Shown here piece after piece: positions 43,494 to 52,510 of a DNA stretch of 64,000 bases. This DNA is from Kangiella marina. GTDB lineage: Bacteria; Pseudomonadota; Gammaproteobacteria; Enterobacterales; Kangiellaceae. The notes under the pieces were generated by a model that did not search any database, had not been told where the DNA came from, and saw nothing but the letters and a program-made list of their open reading frames with translations. A program made the translations under genes and the position numbers. How positions within the stretch are numbered: the stretch's first letter is position 1; every line of letters starts with the position of its first letter. The stretch is from contig NZ_BAABFV010000002.1 of assembly GCF_039541235.1 (NCBI RefSeq), positions 434,001-498,000 of the forward strand. Reading direction: 5' to 3'.

Positions 43494-43566
43494 GTCATTC
43501 CCGCGAAAGCGGGAATCTACGTTCTATTGACTGGTCTCCAGAGATTCCCGCTTTCGCGGGAATGAC
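43494..43566. repeat. REP-like perfect inverted pair, copy 2
   Basis: A 25-base arm (43494-43518) is repeated exactly in inverse at 43542-43566. Each arm contains the palindrome TCCCGCGAAAGCGGGA. It starts 7 bases after the eno stop and could protect the eno mRNA 3' end. Confidence 0.93.
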
Positions 43567-43893: not shown

Positions 43894-44601
43894 ATGAACA
43901 TGAGTTCTGAACGTATTTGGGTGGTTATTCCAGCAGCGGGTATCGGCTCTCGTATGAACTCGGGTACCCCAAAGCAATACATTAAGATCGAAGATAAAAC
44001 CATCCTTGAGTACACCATAAACCGCTTTCTTGAACACTCTAAAGTGCATAAAGTGGTGGTGGCACTTAACCCGAACGATAAAAATTGGCAAGACTTGCCT
44101 TATCAAGAGAACTCGCGAGTCATTACCACCAAAGGTGGTGAGAATCGTGTGGACTCTGTTTTGTCGGGGTTGGATCAGATACGTCAGTTTGAGGGTACTG
44201 AGCATGACTGGGTTATGGTTCATGATGCGGCTAGGCCGTGCCTCAATCCGCGCCATATTGATGACTTAGTCGAAAGCAAAGCGACTTCCCCCGATGGTGC
44301 AATACTGGCAATAGGCGCTGTAGATACCGTTAAGATTGCGAATAACCATCAGTCAATTGAGGCCACTATTGATAGGGAAACCGTTTGGTTGGCCCAAACA
44401 CCACAGTTTTTCCCACTCGAGACATTACGTAAAGCTATCCGCGTGGCTCTGGACAGTGAGGCGACAGTGACTGATGAAGCTTCAGCAATGGAGGTGGCAG
44501 GCTATCATCCAGCCCTTGTTATTGGTTCTAGGCAAAATCTTAAGGTGACTGAGCCGGAAGATCTAATGTTAGCCTCTATTTGGCTTAATCGGGGTATATA
44601 A
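43894..44601 (+). CDS. ispD: 2-C-methyl-D-erythritol 4-phosphate cytidylyltransferase
   Basis: This is the third step of the MEP isoprenoid pathway. The 235-residue protein has VVIPAAGIGSRMNSGTPKQYIKI near residue 10, with the CTP-binding Gly-rich loop and Lys, then VHDAARPCL near 111 and VTDEASAMEVAG near 195. ATGs at 43894 and 43900 are both possible. In most gammaproteobacteria ispF follows immediately; here the his operon intervenes and ispF comes 7.4 kb later. Confidence 0.96.
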   Translation: MNMSSERIWVVIPAAGIGSRMNSGTPKQYIKIEDKTILEYTINRFLEHSKVHKVVVALNPNDKNWQDLPYQENSRVITTKGGENRVDSVLSGLDQIRQFEGTEHDWVMVHDAARPCLNPRHIDDLVESKATSPDGAILAIGAVDTVKIANNHQSIEATIDRETVWLAQTPQFFPLETLRKAIRVALDSEATVTDEASAMEVAGYHPALVIGSRQNLKVTEPEDLMLASIWLNRGI

Positions 44602-44622
44602 CCAAATTGTCATAAAGCTCGG

Positions 44623-44651
44623 TTGACAGAGTGTGAGAATCAGGTTTTAAT
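44623..44651 (+). promoter_or_regulatory. his operon promoter
   Basis: TTGACA (44623-44628), a 17-bp spacer and TTTAAT (44646-44651). The expected transcription start is about 44657-44659, essentially at the ATG of the first leader peptide. Confidence 0.75.
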
Positions 44652-44658
44652 ACAGTCT

Positions 44659-44724
44659 ATGAAAACATTATTAAACACATTGCACCATCATCACCATCAC
44701 ACAAACGTGTTGGCGGTGAGCTAG
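44659..44724 (+). CDS. hisL: his leader peptide 1 (six consecutive His)
   Basis: A 21-residue frame reads MKTLLNTL, then six His (codons 9-14, mixed CAC/CAT), then TNVLAVS and TAG. It is too short for routine gene finding. It lies right after the his promoter and is followed by a perfect 8-bp hairpin (44727-44734 with 44747-44754) and a terminator, the classic layout of a histidine attenuator. Ribosome stalling at the His run when charged tRNA-His is scarce would favour readthrough. No Shine-Dalgarno site is visible, and the message may be leaderless. Confidence 0.92.
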   Translation: MKTLLNTLHHHHHHTNVLAVS

Positions 44725-44761
44725 TGTCTTTAATAATGTAGATATCATTAAAGAATTTTGT

Positions 44762-44793
44762 AAAGCCCCGCCATTGAGCGGGGCTTTTTTTTT
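44762..44793 (+). terminator. his attenuator terminator 1
   Basis: A perfect 10-bp GC-rich stem AAAGCCCCGC / GCGGGGCTTT (44762-44771 with 44778-44787), six-base loop, then nine or more T. Confidence 0.93.
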
Positions 44794-44853
44794 GCCTTTT
44801 ACTAATACAGCAAATCAACCATTAAGTGAAAGAGTCGAGATAGAGTAAGAACT

Positions 44854-44934
44854 ATGAATTTAATCAGTCAATTACATCATCACCATCATACACTTCGCGA
44901 GCGACGGTGGGATGAGTTGTACATGGCTAAATAA
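44854..44934 (+). CDS. his leader peptide 2 (five consecutive His)
   Basis: A 26-residue frame starts MNLISQL, then five His (codons 8-12), then T and a basic/acidic tail ending MAK and TAA. The L-x-x-x-L-His-run-Thr pattern resembles leader 1, suggesting duplication. It lies between terminator 1 and a second terminator. The ribosome site (TAAG) is weak. I see no convincing separate promoter, so both leaders are probably on one transcript. Confidence 0.88.
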   Translation: MNLISQLHHHHHTLRERRWDELYMAK

Positions 44935-44952
44935 CTCTCAACAAAGAATTCC

Positions 44953-44986
44953 AAACCCGTTGCTCCGAAAGGACAGCGGGTTTTTT
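44953..44986 (+). terminator. his attenuator terminator 2
   Basis: AAACCCGTTGCTCC pairs with GGACAGCGGGTTT with a GAAA loop, one bulge and a G-T pair, followed by six T. It ends 50 bp before hisG. Confidence 0.88.
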
Positions 44987-45035
44987 CGTTTTTAGGCTTT
45001 AAATTTTTTAAATATTGATACTTAGGAGAAAGACA

Positions 45036-45884
45036 ATGACTTTGAAAATGGTAATTCCAAAGGGCAAGCTTTACGACAAGGTGGCGGAGCTATTATCGGA
45101 AGTGGGTTTAACCCTAATAGGGGATAGCCGAAATTATCGACCGAAACTATACGGCTGTGACATTGAGGTTAAGCTATTGAAAAGCCAGAATATTCCAGAA
45201 ATGGTGGCGTTAGGACAACACGATATTGGTTTTGCGGGTATGGATTGGATTCTTGAGCAGGAAGCGGATGTCGAAGTCTTAGAGGACTTGGGCTTCAACC
45301 CTGTAAAGCTAGTATCCTGTATTCCAGAAGAGTGGGACTGGGAGGACGTTAAACAGCGAAAGATTATCGTTGCGTCAGAATATAAAAAAATTGCGAATGA
45401 TTACTTAACGAAGCTTGGAGTGCCATTTAAGTTATTGCGTGCTTACGGTGCGACAGAAGTCTTTCCGCCTGAAGACGCCGATATGATCATTGATAATACC
45501 AGTACAGGATCGACAATCCGCGCGAACCGTCTGAAGATTGTTGATACAGTGATTGAAAGCTCGACACAGTTTATTGCTAACAAAGAGATATTAAAGGACC
45601 CAGCGAAGAAAGAACAAATTGATAATCTACTACTGTTGATGCGCGGTGTTATGAATGGACGTAAGCGTGTTTTACTTGAAATGAATTGCGGAAAGGACAC
45701 CATTGAGCAAGTGGTCAACTTGTTACCAGCGATGCGAGCACCAACGGTTAGTGAGCTATATAACGCCGACGGTTTTGCCATTAAAGCAGCGATTGAGCGA
45801 AAACTCATCAAAGATTTGTTGCCTAAACTTATCAGCGCTGGCGCGACGGACATTCTTGAAACACCTATTCGGAAAGCACTATGA
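45036..45884 (+). CDS. hisG: ATP phosphoribosyltransferase, long form
   Basis: This is the first and feedback-regulated step of histidine synthesis. The ATG at 45036 follows AGGAG; an upstream frame start at 45015 adds seven residues without support. The 282-residue protein has the catalytic lobes (MVIPKGKLYDKV, GHDIGFAGMDW-like, DNTSTGSTIRANRLK) and a C-terminal ACT-like regulatory domain (about 210-282), so it is the self-sufficient long HisG that needs no HisZ. It overlaps hisC by ATGA. Confidence 0.95.
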   Translation: MTLKMVIPKGKLYDKVAELLSEVGLTLIGDSRNYRPKLYGCDIEVKLLKSQNIPEMVALGQHDIGFAGMDWILEQEADVEVLEDLGFNPVKLVSCIPEEWDWEDVKQRKIIVASEYKKIANDYLTKLGVPFKLLRAYGATEVFPPEDADMIIDNTSTGSTIRANRLKIVDTVIESSTQFIANKEILKDPAKKEQIDNLLLLMRGVMNGRKRVLLEMNCGKDTIEQVVNLLPAMRAPTVSELYNADGFAIKAAIERKLIKDLLPKLISAGATDILETPIRKAL

Positions 45885-47584
45885 AGCCCATGTATCAAAA
45901 TAATCTAGATTTAGACGCTGCGGGCGGAAGCTCGGTTAAGCCATTAAAGCTAGACTTTAATGAGCGTTCAGATAGCCGACCTTTGTGGCTGGCGGAGCTA
46001 GGAATTTCAACCGACTGTTTATGGCAGTATCCGGATAAAAGCGGTTTACAGCAACAGGCAGCAGACTTTTATCAGCTTGATCCTGAGCAGGTTATGTTAA
46101 CCAACGGTGGTGACGAGTCTATCGAATTACTATTCAAGTTAGCATGTTTGCGTCAAAAGAAGTTGATACTGCCGTTACCTGCTTTTAGCCAGTATATAGT
46201 GGGCAAAGATAATTGGGGCAGCGACATCGATTTGATAGAGCCTTTAGAGGATATGCGTATTGACTTGCAATCAGCACTCGCAGCGTTAGCATCCAATTCT
46301 ATCTTGATTTTAACCAGCCCCAATAACCCTACTGGTGAGCTCATACCTTACGATGACTTAGTGAGCGCATGTAAAAAGGCCAACGCAGTAGGCGCGTCTG
46401 TATTTTTGGATGAAGCCTATATTGAATTCGCGGGCGATGATTCTCAAAGCTTAGGGTTAATCAGTCAGTTCGATAATGTGGTGATCCTAAGAACGCTGTC
46501 TAAAGCTTTTGGTTTAGCAGGAATTCGTTGTGGTTATTTATTAGGGCAGCAAGTTATGATTAGGCAGTTTCAACAACTGGCGATGCCTTTTAATCTGCCA
46601 TCGCCAACCATAGAAATTGCAAAGCAAGCCTTTACTGAGAGTGCCAAGCTGGAGGTGTCTAATTACGCGCAGGTCATCGCCCAGAATCGCGAACAGATTT
46701 CAGAACTGTTGATTTCATCAGGGTTAGACTTAGTTGATAGCAGCGCGAACTTTGTTTTTGTTCAAGGAAGTTCGGCTAAACTACGCTTGATAAAAGCAGC
46801 TTGTCAAAAACGCAATATCACCATTAAAACACAGTTATCGGGTCTTTCTGCGGCGCGGGATGATATTGAAGCTATTCGGATAACCATTCCTTTTTATATC
46901 AAATCATTGTTAACAGCCCTGCGTTTGGCATTACAGCCTGAGCTGATTTGTTTTGATATGGACGGTGTCTTGATTGATACCCGTAAAAGCTACGATGCCG
47001 CGATAACATCAACCGTGAGACGTTTTACCGATACAAGCATCGCGCAAACAGATATCGAGCGTTTACGCAGTCAAGGCGGCTTTAATAATGATTGGGTATT
47101 AACGCAGGCATTAATCCGTGAGCTAGGTAAAGATATTGATTTAGAGAGTGTTACGGAAACGTTTCAGGATTTTTACCAAGGCACCGAGGAGAAGAAAGGG
47201 TTTAAAACATTAGAGAAGCCACTCATCAACAATGATCTCCTTAAGACTCTTTTTATTACACGCTCAAGAACGTTAAAGACGGCAATTGTGACTGGAAGAC
47301 CAAAAGATGAGGCGGTTGAAGGTTCACAATTTATTGGTGCGCGAAACACTTTAGTCATTAGTGATAATGACGTTGAGCAGTCAAAGCCAAATCCAGAGGG
47401 AGTACTCAAAGCGAAGCAGTTTTATGGCAAAGAACTCTGCTGGATGTTAGGAGATACGCCTGATGATATGGCTGCGGCCAATGGCGCCGGAGCTATGGCT
47501 ATAGGCATTGGTCACGATAGCTTATACCAGTACGGTGCTGATTTAGTGCTAGAGTCTGTGAATCAATTGGAGGAGTTGCTATGA
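45881..47584 (+). CDS. hisC: HisC - HAD phosphatase fusion
   Basis: The 567-residue protein has two complete parts. Residues 1-350 are histidinol-phosphate aminotransferase: TNGGDESIE at 74, SPNNPTGE at 146, the PLP lysine Lys208 in TLSKAFGLAGIRCGY, and Arg334 in IRITIP. Residues 355-567 are a HAD hydrolase with motif I DMDGV (Asp359, Asp361), motif II Thr471 (IVTGRP), motif III Lys502 and motif IV GDTPDD (Asp525, Asp529/530). HisB here lacks the usual phosphatase half, so the HAD part probably performs the histidinol-phosphate phosphatase step, which directly follows the HisC reaction. Similar subfamily IA HAD proteins associated with histidine genes exist elsewhere; this fusion partner is uncommon as far as I know. 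Confidence 0.92.
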   Translation: MKPMYQNNLDLDAAGGSSVKPLKLDFNERSDSRPLWLAELGISTDCLWQYPDKSGLQQQAADFYQLDPEQVMLTNGGDESIELLFKLACLRQKKLILPLPAFSQYIVGKDNWGSDIDLIEPLEDMRIDLQSALAALASNSILILTSPNNPTGELIPYDDLVSACKKANAVGASVFLDEAYIEFAGDDSQSLGLISQFDNVVILRTLSKAFGLAGIRCGYLLGQQVMIRQFQQLAMPFNLPSPTIEIAKQAFTESAKLEVSNYAQVIAQNREQISELLISSGLDLVDSSANFVFVQGSSAKLRLIKAACQKRNITIKTQLSGLSAARDDIEAIRITIPFYIKSLLTALRLALQPELICFDMDGVLIDTRKSYDAAITSTVRRFTDTSIAQTDIERLRSQGGFNNDWVLTQALIRELGKDIDLESVTETFQDFYQGTEEKKGFKTLEKPLINNDLLKTLFITRSRTLKTAIVTGRPKDEAVEGSQFIGARNTLVISDNDVEQSKPNPEGVLKAKQFYGKELCWMLGDTPDDMAAANGAGAMAIGIGHDSLYQYGADLVLESVNQLEELL

Positions 47585-48159
47585 GTAATACCATCACTTT
47601 AAGTCGTGAAACCAAGGAAACCACGATTGAGCTGGCGCTTAACATTAATGGCCAGCAGCAGGTATCAATAGATACAGGGTTACCCTTTTTTGATCACATG
47701 TTAAATCAATTAGCGACGCACGCTGGCTGGGATTTGAAGTTAAAGTCTAAAGGCGATTTAGAGGTTGATGATCATCACCTAATAGAAGATGTGGCGATTT
47801 GTTTAGGCCAAGCCTTTAATCAAGCGTGGCGACAGCAAGGAAACATCGTGCGCTATGGTCAGCGTTTATTACCAATGGACGCTAGCTTGTTAATGGTTGC
47901 TGTTGATGTGTGTGGTCGTGCTTATGCGATAACTGACTTACCTTTTTCGCGTGAAAGTTTGGGCGGCATTGGAACGGAAATGTGGAAGCACTTTTTCTAC
48001 ACTTTCGCCATCAATAGCGCCATAACGCTGCACATTAAAACCGAGTACTTTGACAATAATCACCACTTAGTGGAGGCGAGTTTTAAAGGCTTGGCGTTTG
48101 CTTTGCGTGAGGCGCTTCAAGTCAGTGAGCGTAATAATAGTACCAAGGGTGTGTTATGA
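47581..48159 (+). CDS. hisB: Imidazoleglycerol-phosphate dehydratase (monofunctional)
   Basis: The 192-residue protein covers only the dehydratase: FFDHMLNQLATHAGWDL near residue 36, the manganese motif DDHHLIEDVAICLG near 61 and the second DNNHHLVEASFKGLAFALREAL near 160. The N-terminal histidinol-phosphatase domain of enterobacterial HisB is absent. It overlaps hisC and hisH by four bases each (ATGA). Confidence 0.97.
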   Translation: MSNTITLSRETKETTIELALNINGQQQVSIDTGLPFFDHMLNQLATHAGWDLKLKSKGDLEVDDHHLIEDVAICLGQAFNQAWRQQGNIVRYGQRLLPMDASLLMVAVDVCGRAYAITDLPFSRESLGGIGTEMWKHFFYTFAINSAITLHIKTEYFDNNHHLVEASFKGLAFALREALQVSERNNSTKGVL

Positions 48160-48755
48160 GTTCAGCGTTGGGCATAAAAAAGGTGGGCGTGGTCAATACC
48201 AAAGCGGGGAACCTTTTTAGTTTATTTGCTTGCTTGCGACGAATAGGTTTTGAGCCAATTACCGTGAACACCACGCAAGACCTCGAGCTTAATGAATTAT
48301 GTGCTCTGGTGATCCCGGGGCAGGGACGTTTTGGTCAGGTGATGAAACAGTTAAAGGCCACCAAGCTGGACCAAGCGATTCAAATGTGGAGCCAGCAGGG
48401 AAAGCCTTTATTGGGAATTTGTGTTGGCTTACAAGTCATGTTTGAGCAATCTGACGAAGACCCTGGTGTTGAAGGGTTAGCTTTGTTTGAAGGAAAAGTG
48501 ACGCGACTGCAAAGTCCTAAGCAGCCGATGGTTGGTTGGTGCCAACTCGATTCACAAGAAGCAAGATTTAAGAATCAGATTGTTTACTTCGTAAATAGTT
48601 ATGGCGTTAAGTCATCCCCTGTAGCTGTGGCTACGGTGACTTATGGGGAAGAGTTTGTTGCCGCCATTAATCAAGGCAATTTATGGGCCTTTCAATTTCA
48701 TCCCGAAAAGTCGGGGCCAATTGGCGAGGAGATGATTAAGCAATGTCTACGTTAA
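48156..48755 (+). CDS. hisH: Imidazole glycerol phosphate synthase, glutaminase subunit
   Basis: The 199-residue class I amidotransferase has the oxyanion strand segment LVIPGQGRFG near residue 50, the nucleophile in LLGICVGLQVMFEQS near 88 and the FQFHPEKSG His/Glu near 180. It delivers ammonia to HisF. It overlaps hisF by 13 bp. Confidence 0.96.
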   Translation: MSSALGIKKVGVVNTKAGNLFSLFACLRRIGFEPITVNTTQDLELNELCALVIPGQGRFGQVMKQLKATKLDQAIQMWSQQGKPLLGICVGLQVMFEQSDEDPGVEGLALFEGKVTRLQSPKQPMVGWCQLDSQEARFKNQIVYFVNSYGVKSSPVAVATVTYGEEFVAAINQGNLWAFQFHPEKSGPIGEEMIKQCLR

Positions 48756-49519
48756 ATCAACAAGTCGGACTGATACCTCGAGTGATTGTATGTCTCGATG
48801 TTGCCAATGGCCGTGTCGTCAAGGGGGTTAACTTTAAAGGGTTGGCTGATATGGGCGATCCTGTAGAGCTGGCTTTACGTTACCAAGAACAGGGCGCTGA
48901 TGAAATCGTCTTTTTAGACATTAAAGCAACTTTGGAAAATCGTGCCAATGCCCTCGAAACCGTCACTCGTGTGGCACAAAATTTATCCATACCTTTTACC
49001 GTAGGTGGCGGGTTGAATAATTATGACGACGTTGCACAGTTTTTAAATGCTGGGGCTGACAAGGTGGCGCTAAATTCTGCCGCTGTGAAAAATCCTTCAC
49101 TGATTAATCAAATAGCCGATGGCTTCGGTTCTCAGTGTGTGGTGGTGGCGATCGATGTGAATAAAGACGAGGTCGATGATTATGCGGTATACGTTAACGG
49201 CGGCCATGTTAAAACAGAAACCAATGCTTTTGACTGGTTTGCCGAGGTTGAGCAGCGAGGCGCTGGAGAAATTTTATTGACGGCAATGCACCGGGATGGC
49301 ACTGGCATCGGCTTTGATAATGAGCTGATGGCTCGTGTGGCAAAAGAGCGCAACATTCAAGTTATCGCCTCGGGTGGTGCATCCAATGCCGAACATTTTG
49401 TCGATACTTATCAGGCGGGCAGTGATGCAGCTTTAGCGGCAGGTATGTTTCATCGTGGTGAGTACTGTGTTGATGACGTAAAGCAAGCGCTCAAGAAACA
49501 GAATATATTAACTCGCTGA
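48743..49519 (+). CDS. hisF: Imidazole glycerol phosphate synthase, cyclase subunit
   Basis: The 258-residue TIM barrel has [20 protein letters not shown] near residue 12 (catalytic Asp of CLDV), FTVGGGL near 83, VVVAIDV near 133 (second Asp), [16 protein letters not shown] near 175 and VIASGGA near 203. The Ala-Met-His variation in place of the usual SMDRDG is noted. It is followed 24 bp later by hisA. Confidence 0.95.
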
Positions 49520-49543
49520 GGCGAGTCTTAGGAGTGAAGTGAG

Positions 49544-50794
49544 ATGTTAATTCCAAGTATTGATTTATTAGACGGTAAAGCTGTGCAGTTGGAGCAGGGC
49601 AATCCTGATAGAAAGATTGTTGAAGAAGCCGATGTTTTTGGCTTACTTGAACGTTTTTCGCTTTTTGGTGAGGTGGCTATCATTGATTTAGATGCCGCAT
49701 TGGGACGAGGCAGCAATAAACAGCTGATCAAGCAACTCATCAAAAAATATCCGTGCCGAGTTGGCGGTGGTATCCGTGATTATGATACCGCACGCGAGTA
49801 TCTGTCGGCTGGCGCAAAGAAAGTGATTTTGGGTACTTCGTGTCGTTCTGACTTTGTGAAAAAGCTTCCAAGTTCGCAGCTGATATTTGCGATTGATGCA
49901 AAAGGTGATGACTGGGTGACGCATGGTTGGCAATCAACAGATACGGTGAAAGTACTCGATCTCATTCAAGAGATTCAAGGCAACTGTTCCGAGTTTTTGT
50001 ACACGCAGGTGCAAAAAGAGGGCATGCTGGGTGGTATTGATGAAAAAAGAATTCAGCAGGTGGTCAAGACTTCCAAAATTCCCGTCACCGTTGCTGGTGG
50101 CATCACCACATTGGACGACATTCAGTTCATCAATAAACTGGGGTCGAATAGCCAAATAGGAATGTCGGTGTATACCGGTCGCTTAAAGTTAGACGATGCG
50201 TTATTAAGCTGTGTTGATTTCGATAAAGCGCCACTAATGCCGACCATTGTGCAGGATGCGGAAACGGATCAAGTGTTGATGCTGGCGTACTCAACCAAAG
50301 AATCTTTACAGCAAGCTATGATCAAAAAAGCAGGGATTTATTATAGTCGCTCACGTCAGGAGTTGTGGCAGAAAGGCTTAACCAGCGGTAACATCCAAGA
50401 GCTCGTCAATATTGATTATGACTGTGACGGTGATACGTTACTGTTTAAGGTGAAGCAGTCTGGAAATGCTTGCCACTTCGAGCGCTATAGTTGTTTTGCG
50501 ACACAAAATCGCGGGTTCGATCTGAACGTTTTAGATCGTGTTTTCGAGCAGCGACTAGAGGATTTATCGAGTGGTGTCAACGGAAAGTCCTTTACTCAAA
50601 AGCTATTCGCGAGCGAAGATTTGCAAATCGAAAAGCTTAATGAAGAGTGCCAAGAATTGATCGAAGCGCGCGATAATGACGAGGTTCGCTGGGAAGCTGC
50701 GGACTTGATTTTCTTTGCGCTAGTTAATGCCAAAGCGAAAGGGGTGTCGGCAAACGAAATTATCAGTGAACTGGGGGCGCGTAATGCAGACTAA
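49544..50794 (+). CDS. hisA: HisA-HisI-HisE trifunctional fusion
   Basis: The 416-residue protein joins HisA and HisIE. Residues 1-225 are the HisA TIM barrel (IPSIDLLDGKAVQLEQG with Asp7, RVGGGIRDY, FAIDAKGDDW with Asp118, VTVAGGI), fairly divergent: the usual RDG after strand 6 reads KEG. Residues 229-330 are PRA-cyclohydrolase (LWQKGLTSGNIQELV, DCDGD at 293-297, Cys310-His311, Cys317). Residues 345-416 are PRA-pyrophosphatase (NEECQELIEA, RWEAADLIFFAL). It would thus do steps 2, 3 and 4. HisIE alone is common, but an upstream HisA fusion is rare to my knowledge. It overlaps hisD by 11 bp. Confidence 0.93.
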   Translation: MLIPSIDLLDGKAVQLEQGNPDRKIVEEADVFGLLERFSLFGEVAIIDLDAALGRGSNKQLIKQLIKKYPCRVGGGIRDYDTAREYLSAGAKKVILGTSCRSDFVKKLPSSQLIFAIDAKGDDWVTHGWQSTDTVKVLDLIQEIQGNCSEFLYTQVQKEGMLGGIDEKRIQQVVKTSKIPVTVAGGITTLDDIQFINKLGSNSQIGMSVYTGRLKLDDALLSCVDFDKAPLMPTIVQDAETDQVLMLAYSTKESLQQAMIKKAGIYYSRSRQELWQKGLTSGNIQELVNIDYDCDGDTLLFKVKQSGNACHFERYSCFATQNRGFDLNVLDRVFEQRLEDLSSGVNGKSFTQKLFASEDLQIEKLNEECQELIEARDNDEVRWEAADLIFFALVNAKAKGVSANEIISELGARNAD

Positions 50795-52010
50795 AAACGA
50801 TTCACAAATTACTCAGTGCTCTCAGTGGCAAAGAGAGTCGAGTAACAGTCAGTCTGATGTTGAGCCTAAGGTACGTCAACTTTTGGCAGAAATCGCACAG
50901 CAGGGCGACGAAAAGATTGAGCAGCTGAGCCAAGAGTTTGATGGTTTTTCGCCGCAATGGATTAAACTGAAACCTTATGATGAATACGGTTTAGAGGCGT
51001 CATTGGTTGATGCGATTACTTCTGCGGGTGAGCGCATTGAAGCATTTTCTCAGTTCCAGAGAGACAAGCTTACCGACAGTACCTATCTTGATGATTGCGG
51101 TGAGTTTGGGTTTCGTTATCAAGCGATTGAGCGGATTGGTGCTTATATTCCAGGCGGACGTTTTCCGTTGATTTCAACGGCACTGATGACCTTGATTCCA
51201 GCAAAGCTTGCAGGGTGCCAGTCGCGTATTGCTTGTTCGCCGTCAGATCATCCCGCGGTCTTAGCCGCAGCGAGTTTTGCAGGAGCAACCGGTTTCCTCA
51301 AAATCGGTGGTGTTCAAGCGATAGCTGCTTTGGCCTATGGCTATAAAGAGCTTGAGCCGGTTCAGATGGTCGTAGGCCCGGGTAACCAGTACGTTAATGC
51401 TGCAAAGCAAGGGCTAAGTCAGCAGGTACAAATTGATGCGGCGGCGGGGCCTAGCGAGTTGTTGATTTTAGCGGATGCCAACATCAATCAAGAGTGGGTT
51501 ATTGCCGATATGGCAGCACAAGCTGAGCATGATCCGCAGGCACAAAGCTTACTGATTAGCGATAGCCTTGAGCTTTTAGAGTCTGTAGAAATGGCCTTAG
51601 CGGCAGATGACGAGCTGGCTAAACTGCTAGAAGATAAACAAATTATCTTGCTGCTAGCAGATTCAACGGCGCAAATGATTGAGTTTAGTAACCGTTATGC
51701 GCCTGAGCACCTGCTATTGGCTGATCAGCGAATCAACCAAGATCTTTTAATCAATTTCGGTTCACTGTTTATTGGTGAAAACAGCGCTGTCGCCTATGGT
51801 GACTATTGCTCAGGTCCTAACCACACGTTACCTACTATGGGCACAGCCAACCGCTCTAGTGGTTTAAGTGTGTTGAGTTTTCTCAAAGTTCAATCGGTGC
51901 AAGCGGTGAGTGAGATAGGTCGGCAGAAGCTTTCAGATATTGGTCAGAAAATTGCCGAAGCGGAGCAATTGGTTTGGCATCAGAAGAGTATGACGGTAAG
52001 ATCCAGTTAA
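50784..52010 (+). CDS. hisD: Histidinol dehydrogenase
   Basis: This is the last step of histidine synthesis. The ATG at 50784 gives 408 residues; the frame opens earlier inside hisA-IE but has no conserved start there. It shows IGAYIPGGRFPLIST near residue 113, VGPGNQYVNAAKQGL near 195, QIDAAAGPSELLILAD near 216, AEHDPQAQSLL near 249 and ANRYAPEHLLL-like (SNRYAPEHLLL) near 305. The family zinc ligands Gln/His/Asp/His are within these segments. It is the last his gene, whereas in E. coli it is second. ispF starts 20 bp later. Confidence 0.95.
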   Translation: MQTKNDSQITQCSQWQRESSNSQSDVEPKVRQLLAEIAQQGDEKIEQLSQEFDGFSPQWIKLKPYDEYGLEASLVDAITSAGERIEAFSQFQRDKLTDSTYLDDCGEFGFRYQAIERIGAYIPGGRFPLISTALMTLIPAKLAGCQSRIACSPSDHPAVLAAASFAGATGFLKIGGVQAIAALAYGYKELEPVQMVVGPGNQYVNAAKQGLSQQVQIDAAAGPSELLILADANINQEWVIADMAAQAEHDPQAQSLLISDSLELLESVEMALAADDELAKLLEDKQIILLLADSTAQMIEFSNRYAPEHLLLADQRINQDLLINFGSLFIGENSAVAYGDYCSGPNHTLPTMGTANRSSGLSVLSFLKVQSVQAVSEIGRQKLSDIGQKIAEAEQLVWHQKSMTVRSS

Positions 52011-52030
52011 TTGAATAACTGGGTTTTGCT

Positions 52031-52510
52031 ATGTTTCGAATTGGTCACGGATACGATGTCCATAAATTTGGTGGTGATAAGCCTTTAATCTTAGGCGGCG
52101 TCTTGTTTGAGGGCGAGCAAGGCTTGCTTGCGCACTCGGATGGCGATGTTGTACTGCACGCCGTCTGTGATGCGCTACTTGGCGCTATTGCTAAAGGCGA
52201 TATTGGTCATCATTTTCCCGATAGCAGCGACGAGTTTGCTGGTGTGGATAGCAAAGAATTATTAAAGACAGTGATGCAACTGGTCAAAAAAGACGGATTC
52301 TCAATCGGAAATCTTGATGTGACCATTGTTGCTCAAGAGCCAAAAATGGCGGATAAGATCGAAGGCATGAAAGGCGTCATTTGTGCTGTGTGTGATGCTG
52401 ATTTTGAGCAGATAAACCTAAAAGCGACCACCACAGAAAAGCTCGGGTTTGTTGGTCGCAAAGAAGGTATTGCGGTTCATGCAGTCTGTTTGTTGCAGAA
52501 AGCCTCATGA
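52031..52510 (+). CDS. ispF: 2-C-methyl-D-erythritol 2,4-cyclodiphosphate synthase
   Basis: This is the MEP pathway cyclase. The 159-residue protein has the zinc site GYDVHKF (Asp, His), [21 protein letters not shown] near residue 37, [10 protein letters not shown] near 59 and [16 protein letters not shown] near 133. It lies 20 bp after hisD without a visible terminator and overlaps truD by ATGA. Confidence 0.97.

Follow-up and report, generated by a model that had tools for sequence, protein, structure and literature searches.

In textbook attenuation, each operon has one attenuator. The leader of the Salmonella mgtCBR operon has two short ORFs, both coupled to attenuation, with ATP and proline as the signals; Lee and Groisman (2012, PMC3641672), who write that leaders use 'normally, a single attenuator', call it 'a singular example'. 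Tandem T-boxes and riboswitches with identical ligands are units in series from which a pseudo-cooperative, 'digital' response is expected (PMC12452182), and Elf and Ehrenberg attributed the sensitivity of his attenuation to how many His codons a single unit contains and what fraction they make up (PMC1183508). Among the matches listed in a search of the open-licence literature (subscription journals being outside its scope), we found neither tandem leader-peptide attenuators reading the same signal nor attenuation in Kangiella. Here, we describe a his leader from Kangiella marina, analysed within a stretch of 64,000 nucleotides (the window), that very probably, judging by its sequence, places two transcription attenuators one after the other on a single transcript, each complete, ribosome-mediated and responsive to the same signal, the charging of tRNA-His.

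Two probable attenuator units between ispD and hisG

From ispD, which ends at 44601, to hisG, the forward strand carries, in order, a promoter, leader 1, terminator 1, leader 2 and terminator 2. Leader peptide 1 (44659-44724; MKTLLNTLHHHHHHTNVLAVS, 21 residues) has six His codons at 44683-44700, and leader peptide 2 (44854-44934; MNLISQLHHHHHTLRERRWDELYMAK, 26 residues) has five at 44875-44889. Intrinsic terminator 1 follows the first, with its stem at 44762-44787 and a T-run to 44793 (AAAGCCCCGCC..GCGGGGCTTT; -18.1 kcal/mol), and intrinsic terminator 2 follows the second, with its stem at 44953-44983 and a T-run to 44986 (AAACCCGTTGCTCC..CAGCGGGTTT; -18.5 kcal/mol); a generic terminator scan picked up terminator 1 and, of terminator 2, the inner part. 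An earlier note on this DNA, which had reported two His-run frames (six and five His), each followed by an intrinsic terminator before hisG, is borne out on this point. The L-x-x-x-L pattern that it saw in both leaders is absent in relatives (for example, MNTVMTQIHHHHHH and MIILKAQNHHHHH) and is therefore probably due to chance here. Chance was ruled out as the source of the His runs themselves by the excess of CAY runs: chance predicts 0.07 runs of four CAY codons in 64 kb, and seven overlapping matches were found, five of them inside leaders 1 and 2. At gathering level, Rfam returned only a tRNA and no His_leader in the whole window; the His_leader model (RF00514) scored 31 bits at unit 1, below its gathering cut-off of 49.

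The first gene of the regulated operon is hisG (45036-45884, forward strand; NCBIfam TIGR00070, above cut-off), and the gene order hisG-hisC/HAD-hisB-hisH-hisF-hisA/IE-hisD runs to 52010, the end of the last gene, hisD (50784-52010, forward strand; NCBIfam). Two of the genes are fusions, of HisC with a HAD-type hydrolase domain (45881-47584, TIGR01548 region) and of HisA with HisIE (49544-50794). In Gammaproteobacteria, ispD and ispF are often adjacent. Here, the his operon (window 44601-52031) sits between them (NCBIfam), and ispF and the next gene may be expressed by readthrough from his or from an internal promoter. Further upstream, just 3′ of eno, lies an inverted repeat with complementary 21-nt arms (43498-43562; TTCCCGCGAAAGCGGGAATCT), where a sub-threshold Rfam microRNA match is presumably spurious.

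Both units contain a His-run ORF, a terminator, an antiterminator that overlaps the leader ORF and a pause hairpin, the features expected of a his attenuator. Antiterminator strand 1, GGCGGTG (44712-44718, forward strand), has complements in both the 5′ arm of terminator 1 and the His-codon region, and its duplex in the window (-15.7 kcal/mol) beats all 200 shuffles; antiterminator strand 2, GAGCGACGG (44899-44907, forward strand; codons Glu-Arg-Arg), is complementary to CCGTTGCTC of terminator 2. Across 29 genomes with tandem leaders (19 Kangiella and 10 others), all of which had a terminator of -11.8 kcal/mol or better in both units, the antiterminator helix outperformed shuffles at p<=0.05 in 26 for unit 1 and 23 for unit 2, leaving three and six, respectively, that did not. 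The leader strand paired more strongly with the arm of its own terminator than with that of the other unit in 24 of the 29 for unit 1 (with one tie) and in 28 of the 29 for unit 2. Among the 19 Kangiella rows, 82.0% of cells were paired for antiterminator 1 and 95.8% for antiterminator 2, against sliding maxima of 67.6% and 57.6%, respectively. Between lineages, the two sides of the helices change in step, both in unit 1 (GGCGG/CCGCC, GCGGGG/CCCCGC, GGGGC/GCCCC and ACGGGG/CCCCGT) and in unit 2 (GCGACGG/CCGTTGC, GCAACGG/CCGTTGC and GCGACGG/CCGTCGC). Within Kangiella, these helices vary too little for covariation to appear: the formal test found no antiterminator pair changed on both sides, and shuffles scored as high. 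Terminator 2 has a compensatory change at one stem pair, with 97.4% of cells paired and a covariation score reached by none of 500 shuffles.

Folding pointed the same way. Relative to dinucleotide shuffles, unit 1 reached z -6.5 and unit 2 z -4.4; the His-codon hairpins alone were weaker than the whole units (z -2.4 and -1.7), and this pause hairpin was less clear in some relatives (for example, unit 2 of Marinicella marina). In the minimum free energy fold of each window unit, computed without a ribosome, the His codons pair with the strand behind them and the terminator is formed, which is the off state. As far as sequence can tell, the anatomy is that of classical ribosome-mediated attenuation, twice.

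From this anatomy, we infer where transcription starts, that both leaders are translated, that ribosomes stall and that readthrough multiplies. RNA polymerase would start at the TTGACA/TTTAAT promoter before leader 1. With histidine plentiful, the ribosome would pass the six His codons, the leader strand would leave the terminator 5′ arm free and terminator 1 would form; with His-tRNA scarce, the ribosome would stall on the His codons of leader 1, and the stall would free GGCGGTG to pair with CCGCC of terminator 1, so that polymerase would read on. Leader 2 would pose the same test again, with five His codons and GAGCGACGG pairing with CCGTTGCTC, and only transcripts passing both tests would reach hisG. 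Because readthrough would be the product of two terms, basal leak should be lower and the response steeper, a sound expectation that we modelled with assumed parameters. In an illustrative, unfitted toy race model (60 nt at 50 nt/s, codons read at no more than 15 per s, terminators 90% efficient and 95% readthrough when antiterminated, all assumed), the 6+5 pair gave a basal readthrough of 0.010, an 88-fold range and a maximal log-sensitivity of 4.2; a single 6-codon unit gave 0.101, 9-fold and 2.2, and a single 11-codon run 0.142, 7-fold and 2.8.

Distribution and ancestry of the doubled leaders

The earlier note had suggested searching upstream of hisG in related genomes, and both frames are indeed present in close relatives: in the aligned upstream regions, none of the 19 Kangiella-genus genomes that matched hisG lacked either leader or either terminator (the sample was 20 genomes, of which one, 55% complete, had no hisG match). 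In one of them (L018/L092), the His run of leader 1 is degenerate, being missed by the run filter and recognised by eye. The nearest named HisG relatives of the window are Kangiella records (88-97%). Elsewhere in the Kangiellaceae, all 17 genomes with hisG had one leader, 15 of them by the run filter and two (L025 = G035 and L028 = G429) with scattered His codons recognised by eye, and 20 of the 21 genomes sampled from the wider order outside the family had a single leader and one had none (G052, a member of the order with a partial hisG match, was left out of the upstream sample). These 21 belong to a set of 60 upstream stretches from the family, order and class, which by the run filter gave 23 with one His leader, 37 with none and none with two; six of these stretches (L099 and L101-L105) repeat loci already sampled. 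A class-level search matched hisG in 302 of 369 genomes, and no His leader was found upstream of hisG in the 34 examined of the 298 matched class genomes outside the order.

Marinicella marina (L032), a Lysobacterales MAG (L035) and an Alcanivoracaceae MAG (L068) likewise have tandem His leaders, with a terminator for each. Marinicella's order had a hisG match in 98 of 101 genomes; 12 of its genomes had HisG of at least 62% identity, eight of them tandem and four single, and 18 more distant hisG loci of the order had no His leaders. One further locus (L034), cut by a contig end and with a terminator tail before its leader, was left out of the 29 genomes tested and counted as tandem in the HisG tree only. 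In that tree (59 rows, quick method), the tandem loci join Kangiella in one clade (SH-aLRT 99) in which 30 of the 37 rows are tandem and seven single, the label needing five changes; 20 of the 56 inner branches are open, and L018 and L031 were flagged as long branches. One early gain of the tandem arrangement and several later losses of a unit is the simplest reading consistent with these sequences, and a convergent origin in Marinicella-type operons was set aside, since the tree groups them with Kangiella and one origin with losses is simpler. The second unit is dispensable, because 7 of the 37 clade rows have a single one. Window HisG shares 62-68% identity with Marinicella-type HisG and 51-53% with that of five Bacillota/Halobacteroidaceae MAGs, and only 25-33% with 18 of the 21 HisG matches from other families of its own order; this closeness to distant groups over its own order suggests horizontal transfer of the his operon.

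The impression of duplication in the earlier note applies to the entire unit, with a median z of 5.7 for the similarity of unit 1 to unit 2 even without the first 45 nt, a similarity that shared functional constraint could equally have created. A repeat finder detected just an 18-nt His-run repeat in the window his leader, and a recent simple duplication was accordingly set aside as the full story for his, although the whole-unit similarity is significant.

The same genome doubles a second leader. Upstream of ilvC (at L196:3826), two ORFs encode the Ile/Leu/Val-rich leader peptides MLNKALNLLAKSLIVINVIVVILLPQRGRA and MNILNSVIIVLIIVVILLPQRGRY, and a terminator stands after each of them (L196:3359-3767; G000 C1). 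Two ilv leaders and two terminators were found in all nine of the Kangiella genomes with a close ilvC (at least 77% identity, window genome included), which are 9 of the 20 genomes of the genus; the leader filter also flagged a few other short ORFs, none of them followed by a terminator. One member of the family (G024, ilvC 54%) has one ilv leader and one terminator. In the window genome, ilv units A and B are clear copies (repeats of 38 nt and 32 nt at 95% and 97%; similarity z 15.3) whose helices differ on both sides together (CGAGGGC/GCCCTCG in unit A versus CGGGGGC/GCCCCCG in unit B), and across the nine genomes cognate pairing beats the other unit's arm in seven for A and eight for B, with one tie each. 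From the start of the terminator A T-run to leader B is 23-37 nt in three genomes and 108-191 nt in the other six. No promoter stands out before either ilv leader (best scores 6.0-8.0), so that it is the order of the parts that points to series wiring at ilv. An Ile/Leu/Val leader followed by a terminator before ilvC was found at none of eight Marinicella-type loci and none of 15 other Kangiellaceae loci with a distant ilvC, a weak absence because ilvC there is perhaps not the first gene. Rfam gave no gathering match on the ilv leader, and a rough search of the trpE/pabB-like genes of the same genome found no credible leader peptide.

Promoter placement and alternative readings

A predicted sigma-70-type promoter for the whole his leader, TTGACA-17-TTTAAT (44623-44651, forward strand), begins 21 nt after ispD, and its -10 element ends 7 nt before the leader 1 ATG. 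A generic promoter scanner missed it because the scanner requires A at position 2 of the -10 element. The corresponding distance is 6-8 nt in 27 of the 29 tandem genomes by script, and in the other two (L011 and L068) a 6-nt solution is visible by eye. Given this spacing, leader 1 is predicted to be leaderless, with the transcript probably starting at its AUG or within a nucleotide or two; no Shine-Dalgarno sequence was found at leader 1. In several Marinicella-type loci (L164, L165 and L167-L169, and also L160-L162), an extra ATG lies inside the predicted -10 element, 9 nt before that of leader 1. The best -10 element lies at 6-7 nt in 15 of the 27 single-leader relatives versus 1 of the 15 Enterobacterales-order leaders (15-74 nt in the other 14), which makes the short spacing a trait of these lineages and not universal among singles. 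All seven single-leader rows of the tandem clade have a TTGAC-type promoter, with the best-scoring -10 element ending 7-10 nt before the leader start used.

Nothing as consistent was found before leader 2. The earlier note had named a separate strong promoter there as fatal to its reading, and a scan of the 29 tandem genomes found no consistent candidate, with no distance or sequence shared across species; a -10 element lay within 5-9 nt of the leader 2 ATG in one of the 29. The best promoter scores averaged 10.2 for leader 1, 7.8 for leader 2 and 7.9 for 15 Enterobacterales-order his leaders, and because these last promoters are presumably real, a weak promoter before leader 2 would escape the score. 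From the terminator 1 T-run to the leader 2 ATG is 21-66 nt, and 30 nt or less in 13 of the 29, which leaves no room in those 13 for a promoter outside terminator 1. A conserved promoter before leader 1, no consistent one before leader 2 and the short gap that follows terminator 1 support, at the level of sequence comparison, series wiring of the two units.

Three alternatives to two equivalent attenuators in series were weighed. The units might be tuned differently (leaderless versus internally initiated, six versus five His codons) and form a two-input gate instead of a plain amplifier, with His-tRNA charging as one input and the state of translation initiation as the other. Leaderless geometry at leader 1 (27 of 29) and not at leader 2 would fit such a gate, as would the retention of both units across lineages and the Shine-Dalgarno sequence of leader 2, which is weak in Kangiella (mean -2.6 kcal/mol, versus -6.9 for hisG and -1.1 for shuffled sequence) and was found in none of the 10 Marinicella-type tandem genomes, making the efficiency of leader 2 translation uncertain. 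In Sinorhizobium meliloti, however, peptide accumulation from a leaderless trpL construct equalled that from a construct bearing a Shine-Dalgarno sequence (PMC7298713), and the Kangiella ilv leaders have no consistent leaderless geometry, so a leaderless start is not needed for tandem use; we regard the gate as unlikely.

Less probable still is a single working attenuator beside a decaying or structural duplicate, with unit 1, for instance, mainly insulating his from ispD readthrough. The closeness of ispD to the -35 element is in its favour, as is the degenerate leader 1 His run of L018/L092; moreover, leader 1, having no Shine-Dalgarno sequence, would go untranslated on transcripts arriving from ispD, and terminator 1 would then act constitutively on them. 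Yet both units keep their His codons, antiterminator strand and terminator in 19 of 19 Kangiella genomes and in deep branches, and a unit 1 that always terminated would shut the operon, since the promoter precedes it. Insulation as its main role also fits poorly with the Kangiella loci L004 and L018, which keep a TTGACA promoter beside leader 1 and have no ispD match in the 3-kb upstream flank (a search of such flanks found ispD at 11 of 40 loci). Least plausible, and in our view very nearly negligible, are two promoters, one per unit, with the attenuators in parallel or the first bypassed: a 9/12 promoter-like match within leader 1 (44710-44737) could conceivably start transcripts, but it lies before terminator 1, and leader 2 candidates score like other Enterobacterales-order leaders, but they fall well below leader 1, have no common distance or sequence between species and in 13 of the 29 genomes would have no room outside terminator 1.

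Two same-signal attenuators in series therefore remain the preferred reading, backed, through sequence and comparison, by the leaders and terminators, exclusive pairings kept despite sequence divergence, one conserved promoter and genus-wide retention.

Significance and comparison with known systems

More tentatively, we consider it quite possible, if still open to doubt, that stacked leader-peptide attenuators are a lineage-wide rule: in Kangiella, no fewer than two unrelated operons, his and ilv, would have had their attenuators doubled, with both units retained genus-wide, his sensor 1 being leaderless and sensor 2 internally initiated, an arrangement that may replace a repressor and in which unit 1 would also insulate his from ispD readthrough. 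That doubling is seen in two operons suggests that steepness or low leak was selected and that it is no frozen accident, and it should make the his and ilv switches tighter and steeper. A natural, genus-wide pair of units for the same signal would make attenuation sensitivity and low basal readthrough directly testable, and the predicted leaderless start of leader 1 would offer a natural comparison of initiation modes inside one leader RNA. Leader-peptide control would thereby acquire a stacked, digital architecture of the kind described until now for tandem T-boxes and riboswitches.

Each Kangiella unit resembles the his attenuator of E. coli and Salmonella (RF00514) in its His-run leader ORF, its alternative antiterminator and terminator hairpins before hisG and its signal; the classical leader, however, has one unit and an ordinary 5′ UTR, whereas Kangiella has two, the first predicted to be leaderless. 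Single features recur in the leader of rimP, presumably not a leader-peptide amino acid sensor, and in the trp leader of Sinorhizobium meliloti, which we take to be an alphaproteobacterium. The rimP leader likewise has two terminators in series within one leader (PMC2965389), and S. meliloti trpL likewise places a leader ORF at the extreme 5′ end of the transcript but has one trp leader ORF (PMC7298713). The ErmB leader also has two leader peptides, although it works by translational attenuation with an antibiotic as the signal (PMC8274638). Unlike those of the mgtCBR leader (PMC3641672), the two Kangiella units would share one amino acid as their signal, and each has a terminator to itself. 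In having independent units in series for one ligand or signal, the Kangiella leaders are like tandem T-boxes and riboswitches, but those are RNA aptamers most enriched in Bacillota (PMC12452182), whereas the Kangiella units would work by ribosome stalling on leader peptides, in Gammaproteobacteria.
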